64,000 bases of DNA from Chloroflexota bacterium (GTDB lineage: Bacteria; Chloroflexota; Anaerolineae; Anaerolineales; Villigracilaceae): NCBI GenBank assembly GCA_024434165.1, contig QMIW01000004.1:1-64000 (forward strand), written 5' to 3'. Made by a program: the position numbers and the translations under genes. Position 1 is the first letter of the stretch, and every line of letters starts with the position of its first letter. Of the stretch, positions 18,067 to 21,214 are shown in pieces. The notes under the pieces are model-generated. The model did not search any database, was not told the origin of the DNA, and saw only the letters and a program-made list of their open reading frames with translations.

Positions 18067-18095
18067 TTGACACATCCGCAGCCCTGCCATAGAAT
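18067..18095 (+). promoter_or_regulatory. lysC promoter
   Basis: TTGACA (18067-18072), a 17-base spacer, and TAGAAT (18090-18095). Predicted transcription start near 18102, about 32 bases before the leader peptide. Confidence 0.85.
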
Positions 18096-18133
18096 ACCGC
18101 CCAATTATGTACAGCCAAGCGGCTCACTTCACC

Positions 18134-18193
18134 ATGACCATGACCACCACCTCCGGTACACACCGCGAGGCATTTGTGCATGGGATGAAGTAA
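18134..18193 (+). CDS. lysC leader peptide (19 aa, Thr-rich)
   Basis: Short regulatory peptide beginning MTMTTTSGT and ending VHGMK, with five Thr and three Met including the start. Thr codons occupy positions 2, 4, 5, 6 and 9. Codons 10-13 (bases 18163-18171, CCGCGAGGC) can pair with GCCTCACGG (18223-18231) in the terminator 5' arm, with eight of nine pairs. A ribosome stalled on the Thr codons would leave this strand free, so an antiterminator forms. Threonine and methionine are both end products of the aspartokinase pathway. Upstream ribosome-binding sequence is weak. Confidence 0.8.
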   Translation: MTMTTTSGTHREAFVHGMK

Positions 18194-18220
18194 CCGAAAC
18201 AGGGTTAATCAAAACACACA

Positions 18221-18248
18221 ACGCCTCACGGAAACGTGGGGCGTTTTT
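18221..18248 (+). terminator. Attenuator terminator upstream of lysC
   Basis: ACGCCTCACG pairs with CGTGGGGCGT (ten pairs including one G-U) around a GAAA tetraloop, followed by TTTTT. It lies 27 bases after the leader-peptide stop and 63 bases before lysC. Confidence 0.88.
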
Positions 18249-18310
18249 GTTACCCCACCCCCGACCCCTCCCCATCACGAAGTAATGGGAGGGGAGCGAA
18301 GGAGAAGACT

Positions 18311-19732
18311 ATGTCAAAAACACTTGTCATGAAATTTGGAGGCACGTCCGTCGGGTCGGCGGAGGCGCTGGTTGGCGCGCGGCAGATCATTCGGGATGCG
18401 AAAGCGGGTTGGGATCGCGTCGTGGTAGTGACCTCCGCCATGTCTGGCGTGACGAATCTGCTATTGGACTCTGCCGCCTCTGCTTCGCACGGGAGAGTTG
18501 ATTCGTTACCCCAAGCCGAATCCACGCTGAGAGCCAAACACTTCGCCGCCGCGGACGCGTTGCTCAAGGATGAAAGCCTGCGTGAGGCAACGAAATCTGA
18601 AATCAATTCTCTAATTCTCGCCCTCGTGAATCTTTGCAATGCGATTGCCGTGCTCGGCGAAGCCAGCCCACGCGCGCTCGACGCGGTTGCGTCACTGGGC
18701 GAACGGATGAGCGTCCGCTTGCTGGCGGCGGTGCTCAATGATGCGGGAGTCAAAGCCCAGGCGATAGAAGCCAGTGAATTCGTCGTCACGAACGCGCATT
18801 TTCAGAATGCGCATCCTGATTTCAAAGTCACGACCGAAAAGACGCGGGCGGCATTGAATCCCTTGCTGGATGCAGGTATTATTCCCATCACCACCGGTTT
18901 TATCGGCGCGACGCCTGAAGGCGTCATTACCACGCTGGGACGCGGTGGCAGTGACTATTCCGCGGCGATCATCGGCTCCGTGCTCCCCGCCGATGAGGTC
19001 TGGATCTGGACCGACGTGGACGGCGTGATGACGACCGATCCGCGCATCGTGAAGGACGCGCAAACACTGCCTGAGATCAGTTACAGCGAAATCGCCGAAC
19101 TCGCCTATTACGGCGCAAAAGTCTTGCATCCGAAGACCATTCGTCCTGTGGTGGAGGCGGGCATCGGGCTGAGGATTTGCAACACGTTCAACCCCTCCCA
19201 CCCCGGCACGCGCCTCACCGCTAATGGCAAATCCAACGGCAAACCGGTTAACGGGCAGGTCGTCAAAGCCGTGACCGCCATCCGCAGGCAGAGATTGGTG
19301 ACCATCGAAGGGCGCGGTATGCTCGGTGTCCCCGGCGTGGCGGCGCGGGCGTTCGGCGCGGTTGCTTCCACAGGTACGAGCGTTCCGTTGATTACGCAAG
19401 CCTCGTCGGAGCAGTCCATTTGCTTCGCTGTGCCGTCTGAAACCGCTCCGTCCGTGCTGGAGGCGCTGGAAAGCGCCTTTGTCCATGAAATCGAAGACGA
19501 CGACATTGACCGCGTCTGGTCCACGGACGATATTTCGATCATCACGGTCGTCGGCGCAGGGATGCGTCACACGCCCGGTGTGGCGGGGAAAGTCTTCAGT
19601 CAACTCGGGAACAACGGCGTCAACGTGCTCGCCATCGCGCAGGGATCATCGGAGGTATCCATCAGTCTCGTCGTGGACGCGGCGGATACGGAGAACGCGG
19701 TCAAGACGCTGCATCAGTTAATTGTGAACTAA
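18311..19732 (+). CDS. lysC: Aspartokinase
   Basis: Phosphorylates aspartate, first step to Lys, Thr, Met and Ile. It has 473 residues, monofunctional. N-terminal kinase domain with VMKFGGTSVGSAEA at the start, TTLGRGGSDYSAA around residue 210, and EISYSEIAELAYYGAKVLHP around 255; two ACT domains follow from about 320 (LVTIEGRGMLGVPGVAARAF, then ISIITVVGAGMRHTPGVAGK), which usually bind Lys or Thr. The ATG at 18311 has AAGGAG six bases upstream. No fused homoserine dehydrogenase. Control by the attenuator just upstream is likely. Confidence 0.95.
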   Translation: MSKTLVMKFGGTSVGSAEALVGARQIIRDAKAGWDRVVVVTSAMSGVTNLLLDSAASASHGRVDSLPQAESTLRAKHFAAADALLKDESLREATKSEINSLILALVNLCNAIAVLGEASPRALDAVASLGERMSVRLLAAVLNDAGVKAQAIEASEFVVTNAHFQNAHPDFKVTTEKTRAALNPLLDAGIIPITTGFIGATPEGVITTLGRGGSDYSAAIIGSVLPADEVWIWTDVDGVMTTDPRIVKDAQTLPEISYSEIAELAYYGAKVLHPKTIRPVVEAGIGLRICNTFNPSHPGTRLTANGKSNGKPVNGQVVKAVTAIRRQRLVTIEGRGMLGVPGVAARAFGAVASTGTSVPLITQASSEQSICFAVPSETAPSVLEALESAFVHEIEDDDIDRVWSTDDISIITVVGAGMRHTPGVAGKVFSQLGNNGVNVLAIAQGSSEVSISLVVDAADTENAVKTLHQLIVN

Positions 19733-19735
19733 CCC

Positions 19736-19826
19736 GTCATTGCGAGGAGGACGTAGTCCGACGAAGCAATCCCCAATATGGTGGTGGAGATTGCTTCGGG
19801 CGGAAGAGCACCGCCCTCGCAATGAC
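19736..19826. repeat. Palindromic element, GTCATTGCGAGG family, copy f
   Basis: Starts GTCATTGCGAGGAG, inner arms CGAAGCAATCCCC and GGAGATTGCTTCG, ends CCTCGCAATGAC. Lies between lysC and asd. Confidence 0.85.
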
Positions 19827-19853
19827 GGAAAAAATCCAAAAGGAGAAATCATC

Positions 19854-20957
19854 ATGCCCTCATCCCCCATCCCCGTAGCCGTGCTCGGCGCGACCGGTTC
19901 CGTCGGTCAACGATTTATTTCGTTGCTGGATAACCATCCCTGGTTCAAGGTCGTGGCGCTGGCCGCCTCCGATCGCTCGGTGGGACAAAAATATTCATCC
20001 GCCGCGCGCTGGGTGCTGGATGTGCCTATGCCTGACTATGCCAAAGATATGATCGTCGTCCCCGCCACCACCGAGGCCGTGCAAGCGCAGATCGTTTTCT
20101 CGGCGTTGCACACGGAGGTGGCTAACGAACTCGAACCACAATTCGCCAAAGCCGGTGCGGCGGTCTGCTCGAACGCCTCCTCGTATCGGCGCGCGGAGGA
20201 TGTCCCGCTGCTGCTCCCTGAGATCAACGCCGATCACATCCATCTCGTCAAACAACAGCGCAAGAACCGAGGCTGGAGCGGGTGCATCGTCACGAATCCG
20301 AACTGCACGAGCACAGGTCTTACGATTGCGCTCAAGGCGCTCGATGAGGCGTTCGGCGTGAAGAAGGTGTTCGCGGTCTCGCTGCAAGCGCTTTCGGGCG
20401 CGGGCTATCCCGGCGTCCCTTCGCTGGACATCATGGACAACATCATCCCCAACGTCGCCAACGGCGGCGAAGAGGAAAAAGTGGAATGGGAGCCGCGCAA
20501 GATGCTGGGCAAATATATAGAAATGCTCGAGCCGCCGTCCTCGGCAGCGGGGACGCCGCCGGGAGCATATATAGAATTGGCGGATATCAAATTCAGCGTG
20601 CACACGAATCGCGTGGCGGTGATTGACGGACATACCGTCTGCGCGAGCGTGGAGTTGGCGCGTCCCACCGACCCGGCAACTGCGGAGGCGGTTCTACGTG
20701 CCTTTGCTACCCCGCCGTCAGCCAGGGAACTGCCCTCGTCACCGCGACCCGTCATCTCGGTCAGGGAAGAAGCGGATCGTCCTCAGCCGCGCCTCGACCG
20801 CTTGACCGGAAATGGCATGACGACAGTCGTAGGCAGATTAAGACGCGATCCAATTCTTGATCTTAAGTTTGTCGTTTTGTCGCACAACACGATTCGCGGC
20901 GCGGCAGGCGCGTCCATTTACAACGCGGAGTTGTTGGTGAATGAAAATTTGTTGTAA
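19854..20957 (+). CDS. asd: Aspartate-semialdehyde dehydrogenase, carrying an in-frame repeat insertion
   Basis: NADP-dependent reduction of aspartyl phosphate, the step after LysC. It has 367 residues. [14 protein letters not shown] at the start, catalytic Cys in [12 protein letters not shown] around residue 148, and [14 protein letters not shown] around 182; the layout matches the archaeal/fungal-type class. The ATG at 19854 has AAGGAG upstream; the frame above it is repeat text. Residues about 220-238 ([17 protein letters not shown]) come from a 54-base in-frame insertion bounded by ATATATAGAA direct repeats, at a surface loop position just after [14 protein letters not shown]. Confidence 0.93.
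20513..20576 (+). repeat. Palindromic element inside asd with 10-bp direct repeats
   Basis: Core 20523-20566 (44 bases) opens with ATGCTC and ends with GGAGC, with GC-rich complementary arms CCGCCGTCC and GGGGACGCCGCC. Identical ATATATAGAA lies on both sides (20513-20522 and 20567-20576), as expected for a target-site duplication. The period is 54 bases, so the frame is kept. A close copy of the core lies at 60359-60401. Confidence 0.85.
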
Positions 20958-21015: not shown

Positions 21016-21214
21016 GCTCTTATCCAGAGAGGCGGAGGGACCGACCCTGTGAAGCCTCGGCAACCGGTGTTAGTCACATAGTCGAATAGTCAGTTGGTCA
21101 GATAGTCAAAAGCGACTAAAGACCATGCGACCAAATGACTATCAGACTAAACATACGGTGCCAATTTCGGCAAATAAGAATGGCAATGCCATTCATTATC
21201 TGGAAGATGAGAGG
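21016..21214 (+). promoter_or_regulatory. SAM-I (S-box) riboswitch with enlarged P3 arm
   Basis: Conserved blocks appear in the right order: CTCTTATCCAGAGAGGCGGA, GGGACCGACCCTGTGAAGCC, CGGCAACC, GGTGCCAATTTCGGCA, a P4-like hairpin AATGGCAATGCCATT, then TTATCTGGAAGATGAGAG closing P1. Between GGCAACC and GGTGCC there are 91 bases (21066-21156), far longer than usual; they consist of mirrored ATAGTC / GACTAT repeat units that extend P3 as a hairpin. A terminator follows, so high SAM should stop transcription of metY-metA. Confidence 0.93.

Follow-up and report, generated by a model that had tools for sequence, protein, structure and literature searches.

The thr operon of gammaproteobacteria is controlled by an attenuator in which a Thr/Ile leader is combined with competing hairpins and a terminator. 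In Shewanella, a Thr attenuator is described before thrA, which encodes a fused aspartokinase-homoserine dehydrogenase (PMC2659441), and in Streptomyces lividans the attenuator peptides thrL (before thrS), trpL, leuL and ilvL are described as leaderless (PMC8079986). The attenuator RNA of Sinorhizobium meliloti trpL has its 5' end at the ATG of the leader ORF (PMC7298713). A 2005 survey gives no conserved RNA element for actinobacterial threonine operons (PMC1262725), and by the account of a 2010 survey leader-peptide systems were known only in Proteobacteria and Actinobacteria before that survey added the Firmicutes (PMC2965389).

The window, by which we mean the whole stretch of 64,000 nucleotides that was analysed, carries the aspartokinase gene lysC behind a leader built on a similar plan (Table 1). 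Our comparisons suggest that this leader is very probably a ribosome-mediated transcription attenuator that senses charged tRNA-Thr and controls lysC, probably together with asd. The initial annotation had placed here a promoter, a Thr-rich ORF, a terminator with a GAAA loop and a competing pairing at eight of nine positions, and we recovered all of them. The promoter matches the consensus at 11 of 12 positions, with one such site observed against 0.4 expected from shuffles, and the terminator hairpin (18220-18245) has 11 pairs, a 4-nt loop and a following stretch of T's, with two terminator-like sites observed against 0.7 expected. In the competing pairing, CCGCGAGGC (18163-18171) faces GCCTCACGG (18223-18231) with a single mismatch, C18166.A18228. 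The 154-nt leader RNA folds with z = -3.87 relative to shuffles, and the segment 18160-18235, from which arm 1 and arm 4 are excluded, forms the helix of arms 2 and 3 (2:3) with z = -4.25. The window's own match between arm 2 and arm 3 is not above that of leader shuffles (p = 0.119), so the case for the 2:3 helix is a comparative one.

At E up to 0.001, the assembly, which is 98% complete, has no aspartokinase match other than lysC. This gene had been called stand-alone, which is not quite right, since asd begins at 19854 after a gap of 121 nt, a spacing that suggests co-transcription of the two. Further downstream of asd lie metY and metA, and the SAM riboswitch ahead of this pair means that the Met branch and lysC seem to be under different RNA devices within one locus. 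Palindromic repeat-like stretches lie between the terminator and lysC (18252-18297) and between lysC and asd (19733-19830); they are of two types, CACCCCCGACCCCTCCCC...GGGGAGGGG and CATTGCGAGGAGG...GCAATGACGG, and by eye similar stretches occur close to lysC in several relatives.

Table 1. Features of the lysC leader and its surroundings, in positions of the window
Feature	Position	Strand	Description	Basis
Promoter	18067..18095	+	Sigma-70 type: TTGACA (18067-18072), 17-nt spacer, TAGAAT (18090-18095)	
Transcription start site (TSS)	18103	+	A, 8 nt past the -10 hexamer	Predicted only, from where the promoter lies and from the conserved CGCCCA motif
Leader peptide ORF	18107..18193	+	28 codons and TAA, MYSQAAHFTMTMTTTSGTHREAFVHGMK; near-leaderless ATG about 4 nt past the predicted TSS	
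ORF of the initial annotation	18134..18193	+	19 codons, MTMTTTSGTHREAFVHGMK; its ATG is probably an internal Met and not the start	
Regulatory Thr codons	18143..18151	+	ACC ACC ACC, at -20, -17 and -14 relative to arm 2	
Arm 1	18150..18157	+	CCTCCGGT, partner of arm 2	Leader fold; 85.6% of cells paired
Arm 2	18162..18171	+	ACCGCGAGGC, partner of arm 1 or arm 3	Fold without arm 1 and arm 4; 93.4% of cells paired, 27 loci
Arm 3	18220..18231	+	5' strand of the terminator, competitor for arm 2	
Intrinsic terminator	18220..18251	+	Arm 3, GAAA, arm 4, U run	99.7% of cells paired, 27 loci
Shine-Dalgarno of lysC	18300..18304	+	AGGAG	SD-like motif at 70 of 71 lysC starts
lysC	18311..19732	+	Aspartokinase, 473 aa, ACT domains	
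asd	19854..20957	+	Aspartate-semialdehyde dehydrogenase; starts 121 nt past lysC	
SAM riboswitch	21017-21213		RF00162, between asd and metY, before metY-metA	72.3 bits

The existence of a Thr-rich leader ORF held up, while its start at 18134, which gave a peptide of 19 codons, did not; the in-frame ATG at 18107 serves better and is most likely the start, as judged from the relatives. In 25 of the 26 genus loci that were parsed (L011, L017, L026 and L030 were left out) the first ATG lies 1-6 nt past the predicted TSS and in frame with the Thr run, the exception being L005, and the ORFs opened by these 25 ATGs run through the Thr codons for 25-33 codons. The leader thus contains a short, translated-looking ORF in which the frame of a codon run for the pathway product is kept. 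Among 79 lysC loci (78 from named records and the window), 71 have a Thr-rich ORF whose ATG is 0-7 nt past the predicted TSS, a count that required at least two Thr in seven codons, sought no ATG beyond 7 nt and took the TSS from the promoter; the distance is 3 or 4 nt in 61 loci. Translation from the internal ATG at 18134 instead of 18107 is quite improbable. Such an ATG is found in 65 of 71 leaders, and at L117/L005 it is the only one; it is, on the other hand, missing from five of the 71 (a sixth one listed, L173, has its start placed at the internal ATG) and also from the genus loci L018 and L020, and the first ATG after the predicted TSS is in frame with the Thr run in nearly all genus loci. 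In a 15-nt search span used throughout, an SD-like motif precedes none of 65 internal ATGs, which is under the 11% of random spans (159 of 1420), as against 70 of 71 lysC ATGs. At L117/L005 (G034) we observed by eye about 95 nt beyond the usual between promoter and leader, with the TSS-proximal ATG lost.

The position and kind of the Thr codons were compared in the 62 leaders that remain when nine without a recognisable arm 2 are taken from the 71. Thr is encoded at -20, -17 and -14 from arm 2 in 52, 54 and 59 of them, and the codon after the run is Ser in 54. At -20 and -17 the codons ACC, ACT and ACA interchange, and at -14, which overlaps arm 1, the codon is ACC in 58 of 59 cases. The ATG frame holds 5.2 Thr per leader versus 1.9 and 0.5 in the other frames; three leaders (L176, L179, L189) have two Thr codons only. 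Arm 2 takes one of two frames with respect to the ATG (53 and 9 of 62 leaders) while the Thr run stays in the ATG frame, so that the peptide past the run differs (SGT.REAF or SRLSVRN) and the RNA motif CCGYGAGG persists. For this reason the Thr run is, as far as these comparisons reach, conserved as code and arm 2 as RNA. The leading edge of a ribosome is about 12-15 nt from its A-site codon. The last Thr codon of the window begins at 18149, 14 nt ahead of arm 2 (18163), and the start of arm 1 falls inside that codon; in 59 of the 62 leaders the last Thr codon is 14 (or 13) nt ahead of arm 2, which bears out the earlier observation that arm 2 begins about one footprint after the Thr run. With a footprint of that general size, a ribosome paused at the last Thr codon would cover arm 1 and end about at arm 2.

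The mechanism that we propose would work as follows. A ribosome would load where the nascent RNA begins, at its 5' end. With ample charged tRNA-Thr, it would reach the stop codon at 18191, and arm 1 would pair with arm 2 behind it; with arm 2 held by arm 1, arm 3 would be free for arm 4, and transcription would stop near 18250. With charged tRNA-Thr scarce, the ribosome would wait at the Thr codons and cover arm 1, arm 2 would capture arm 3, the terminator would not form and lysC-asd would be transcribed.

The helices were assessed in an alignment of 27 of the 30 genus lysC loci (L011, L026 and L030 were left out). The proportion of cells paired is 93.4% for 2:3, at most 57% in slid controls of that helix, 99.7% for the terminator helix (3:4) and 85.6% for the helix of arms 1 and 2 (1:2), and the mean energies are -16.4, -19.0 and -9.7 kcal/mol, respectively. 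With arm 1 and arm 4 removed, a 2:3 helix of at least 6 pairs forms in all 27 loci, and with arm 1 present and arm 4 absent, at least 6 pairs of 1:2 form in 11 of 27; the protecting 1:2 pairing appears to be looser than the other helices. The antiterminator (2:3) and intrinsic terminator (3:4) predicted for the genus are mutually exclusive. One base changes in concert in arms 2, 3 and 4, from U-A-U to C-G-C: the 2:3 pair 18-91 is UA in 18 loci, CG in five, UG in three and broken in one, and the 3:4 pair 91-107 is AU in 18, GC in eight and broken in one. The window itself is the sole locus of the 27 with a mismatch at this covarying 2:3 pair. Two-sided change occurs in only one of nine 2:3 pairs, which 467 of 500 shuffles reach, so that there is no excess by this measure; the number of cells changed on both sides lies above most shuffles (reached by 4 of 500), as does the covariation score (2 of 500), and kinship among the loci inflates such scores. 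When loci were taken singly, after 10 of 86 without leader or terminator had been excluded, the match of arm 2 and arm 3 had p <= 0.05 in 39 of 76 loci, many of them related, and did not in 37; 20 reach 0.01. Two loci with short upstream sequence (L125, L160) were left out of this single-locus test, as they were from the promoter-pattern, 79-locus ATG and codon-composition counts.

These data bear on a simpler explanation, namely that the hairpin terminates transcription constitutively and so caps a short RNA, with an incidental Thr-rich ORF and with lysC read either at a low, constant level or from a different promoter. The poor 2:3 statistics of the window taken by itself (p = 0.119) would agree with this, and the palindromic stretch between terminator and lysC could bear other signals. 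We nevertheless consider it very improbable, given that Thr is kept at -20 and -17 while the third bases vary, that three arms covary, that the Thr run keeps the ATG frame while arm 2 occurs in two frames, and that other codons are used before hisG and an aminotransferase gene (see below). The initial annotation's proposal was exposed to the sequence-based tests that could overturn it and stood within the genus, where close relatives keep both the Thr codons and the competing pairing.

A metabolite-binding riboswitch, for lysine, threonine or another ligand, could act through the same terminator. A lysine riboswitch is described before lysC in Shewanella (PMC2659441), and the SAM riboswitch between asd and metY places a device of that class in the same locus. 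Against it, no Rfam family reaches its cut-off in the lysC leader, and the conserved part consists of a codon run and simple complementary arms with no aptamer-like core apparent in the alignment, which makes a riboswitch extremely unlikely. The aptamer model of the lysine riboswitch (RF00168) had no match before the window's lysC, the Thr_leader model (RF00506) had none in the leader even at E up to 10, and at a relaxed cut-off Rfam gave only matches far under the cut-offs, the best leader family being Phe_leader with 19.2 bits against a cut-off of 55.

Methionine codons are also found in the leaders. Internal Met makes up 7.2% of lysC leader codons versus 1.9% in hisG leaders and 0% in aminotransferase leaders, which would favour an attenuator that senses Met, or both Met and Thr to the same degree, instead of chiefly Thr, and Met stands among the Thr codons in the leaders of other families as well. 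Among the 62 leaders, Met is found at -23 to -32 in 23 to 29, at -20 in seven and at -17 and -14 in none, and Thr is near-fixed at -20, -17 and -14; moreover, there is a separate SAM riboswitch for the Met branch (Table 1). We therefore regard Met as the main or equal signal as unlikely. A ribosome stalled at Met -23 to -32 would cover arm 1 only partly. Met is plausibly a weaker co-signal beside Thr, in which case Met shortage may push the attenuator in the same direction, more weakly.

The lysC upstream regions of the genus can be aligned from promoter through terminator. The named relatives are mostly labelled Anaerolineales, Anaerolineae or Chloroflexi, for example 'Candidatus Villigracilaceae bacterium AMX68' and 'Chloroflexi bacterium OLB14'. 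A strict pattern of promoter, ATG and Thr codons was found at 52 of 78 lysC loci, with a 17-nt spacer in 48, TTGAC[ACGT] at -35 in 52 and TAGAAT at -10 in 39, counts from a pattern that itself admits only promoters of this form. A covariance model built from the 27 genus loci gave strong matches, with a best E of at most 9.2e-10, in 47 of the 57 genomes of the genus. Seven of the ten misses are without an intact lysC: none was found in G011, G014, G017, G024 and G036, G002 has a weak, unrelated-looking match and G025 a C-terminal piece only. At another (L026/L147, G008 contig 363) no element was found in the 276 nt between contig end and lysC, and the remaining two (G066, G069) are 53 and 66% complete. 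By eye, the DNA before lysC at L026/L147 resembles the end of a transposase-type gene.

Among 301 genomes of the order, every match of the model with E < 1e-7 falls in the same family. All 42 matches returned as loci precede a lysC start motif, 34 of them in the genus and eight in other genera of the family (34 placed by a terminator-plus-lysC pattern and eight by the position of the lysC motif). Twenty weaker matches were inspected, of which 12 lie before lysC, one before hisG in another family (L085) and seven look unrelated. Of 20 weak matches elsewhere, two are aminotransferase leaders (L097, L101), one is a lysC leader truncated where its contig stops (L109) and one is L108; of the 16 that are left, 13 lie at the ends of open frames of at least 100 codons and look like gene-end terminators, and three do not belong to that group (L104, L106, L113). 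L108 (G035:C202:7478-7579, E 1.5e-12) is apparently a decayed second copy of the attenuator, with no lysC in the stretch inspected. In other families of the order, a Thr-rich ORF shortly downstream of a promoter-like site occurs at seven of 15 lysC loci (L348, L350-L353, L358, L361), for example MFFNVTTTTMTLTTVCNAPLFCHG, with less regular spacing to the -10-like site. Six of these (L348, L351-L353, L358, L361) have terminators, with no arm 2 found that exceeds shuffles (p 0.06-0.64), and at L350 a terminator was sought and not found; at L355, two matches with three Thr were discounted as they have no Thr run. Outside the order, a search with one pattern over about 500 nt found a leader at none of 25 lysC loci, two of which belong to the same class and 23 to others, and the exact terminator sequence had no match in viral contigs. 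Six named records (L177, L178, L185, L191-L193) show the same plan with quite different arms; the match of arm 2 and arm 3 has p = 0.025 in L185 and 0.010 in L191 and is not at or below 0.05 in the other four.

Leaders of like build were found before other genes. Those of hisG (L194-L217, L085) contain His runs, for example MFARAHHHHHSDLPADRLG, and are present both within the genus and across several families of the order. Those of an aminotransferase-like gene (L219-L243) contain Asn and Thr, in the window's genome MSNRLNTNTNINLTNDDLVRHWWFSGEQEKVQPG; at this locus (L222, G000:C63, upstream of 34499) an Asn/Thr-rich ORF with its ATG at the predicted TSS and a terminator precede the aspartate-aminotransferase-like gene, which has the Pfam domain Aminotran_1_2 and whose best NCBIfam scores are far under cut-off. 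By eye, the arms of the aminotransferase leaders, for example GGGGCGTTGG / CCAAACGCCCC, vary together with GGGGCATTGG / CCAATGCCCC. A leader caller that has no amino-acid criterion gave 19.4% Thr and 3.7% His codons before lysC (62 of 78 loci called), 6.0% Thr and 21.7% His before hisG (14 of 24) and 14.3% Thr and 11.3% Asn before the aminotransferase gene (21 of 22); these counts left out L240-L242, where the start motif was not found, and L218, a partial hisG. This difference from gene to gene is what speaks most strongly for the codons being the signal. A hisG gene was sought in the window's own assembly and not found. A scan for promoter, ATG, codons and terminator before trpE, hom and ilvB (18, 30 and 26 loci) gave nothing convincing, and two chance-looking matches (L272, L322) were set aside. 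Leaders of this kind are within reach of the scan, which recovered 20 of 25 hisG loci, but other layouts would escape it.

A wider reading, to which we would give somewhat less than an even chance, is that the Anaerolineales possess a set of leaderless attenuators (lysC with Thr, hisG with His, the aspartate-aminotransferase-like gene with Asn and Thr), in which loading of the ribosome at the 5' end, on the emerging AUG and with no Shine-Dalgarno step, would itself synchronise translation with transcription, and the Asn-rich leader would be an asparagine-sensing attenuator. We know of no description of an attenuator with that specificity.

The initial annotation held that an attenuator of this type seems undescribed in the lineage, and our full-text literature searches agree in so far as they returned no report of such an element in Chloroflexota, with the reservation that the Lopatovskaya 2010 survey could contain one. 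In two papers, Chloroflexi appear in the reference list only (PMC9413887) or only as a group with noisy data (PMC4833913). The mechanism is classical, and the phylum, the near-leaderless start and the gene setting look undescribed as far as the literature was searched. Classical ribosome-mediated attenuation, which the literature found places in Proteobacteria, Actinobacteria and some Firmicutes, would be extended to the Chloroflexota, where the gene under control apparently encodes the sole aspartokinase, which is the gate enzyme for the aspartate family. Testable predictions on regulation follow for uncultured bacteria that are known here from assembled genomes alone, and the joining of attenuation to an apparently leaderless start offers a natural setting in which to ask how a ribosome that has no Shine-Dalgarno sequence keeps pace with RNA polymerase.

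The element resembles the gammaproteobacterial thr attenuator (RF00506), as it is described, in combining a run of Thr codons with competing hairpins and a terminator ahead of an aspartokinase gene, and differs from it in that a monofunctional lysC followed by asd would be controlled, in another phylum, by an element that has a near-leaderless ORF and no Rfam match. The lysine riboswitch (RF00168) is likewise described as an RNA element before lysC (PMC2659441), but it binds a ligand, is without a leader peptide and has no match in the window. The His attenuators reported for the his operon of Firmicutes were also recognised by comparative genomics as leader and hairpins outside the Proteobacteria, although for another amino acid and in another phylum (PMC9413887). 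Similar in the start of the leader are the peptides of Streptomyces lividans, whose leaderless ORFs with regulatory codons are matched by the leaderless ORF predicted here, while phylum and genes differ and its thrL is described with two Thr codons and no clear terminator (PMC8079986). Sinorhizobium meliloti trpL shares the leader ATG at or near the 5' end of the RNA, a position that is predicted for our locus; unlike the window's element, it belongs to Trp and to the Alphaproteobacteria, and its released RNA and peptide are described as acting in trans (PMC7298713).
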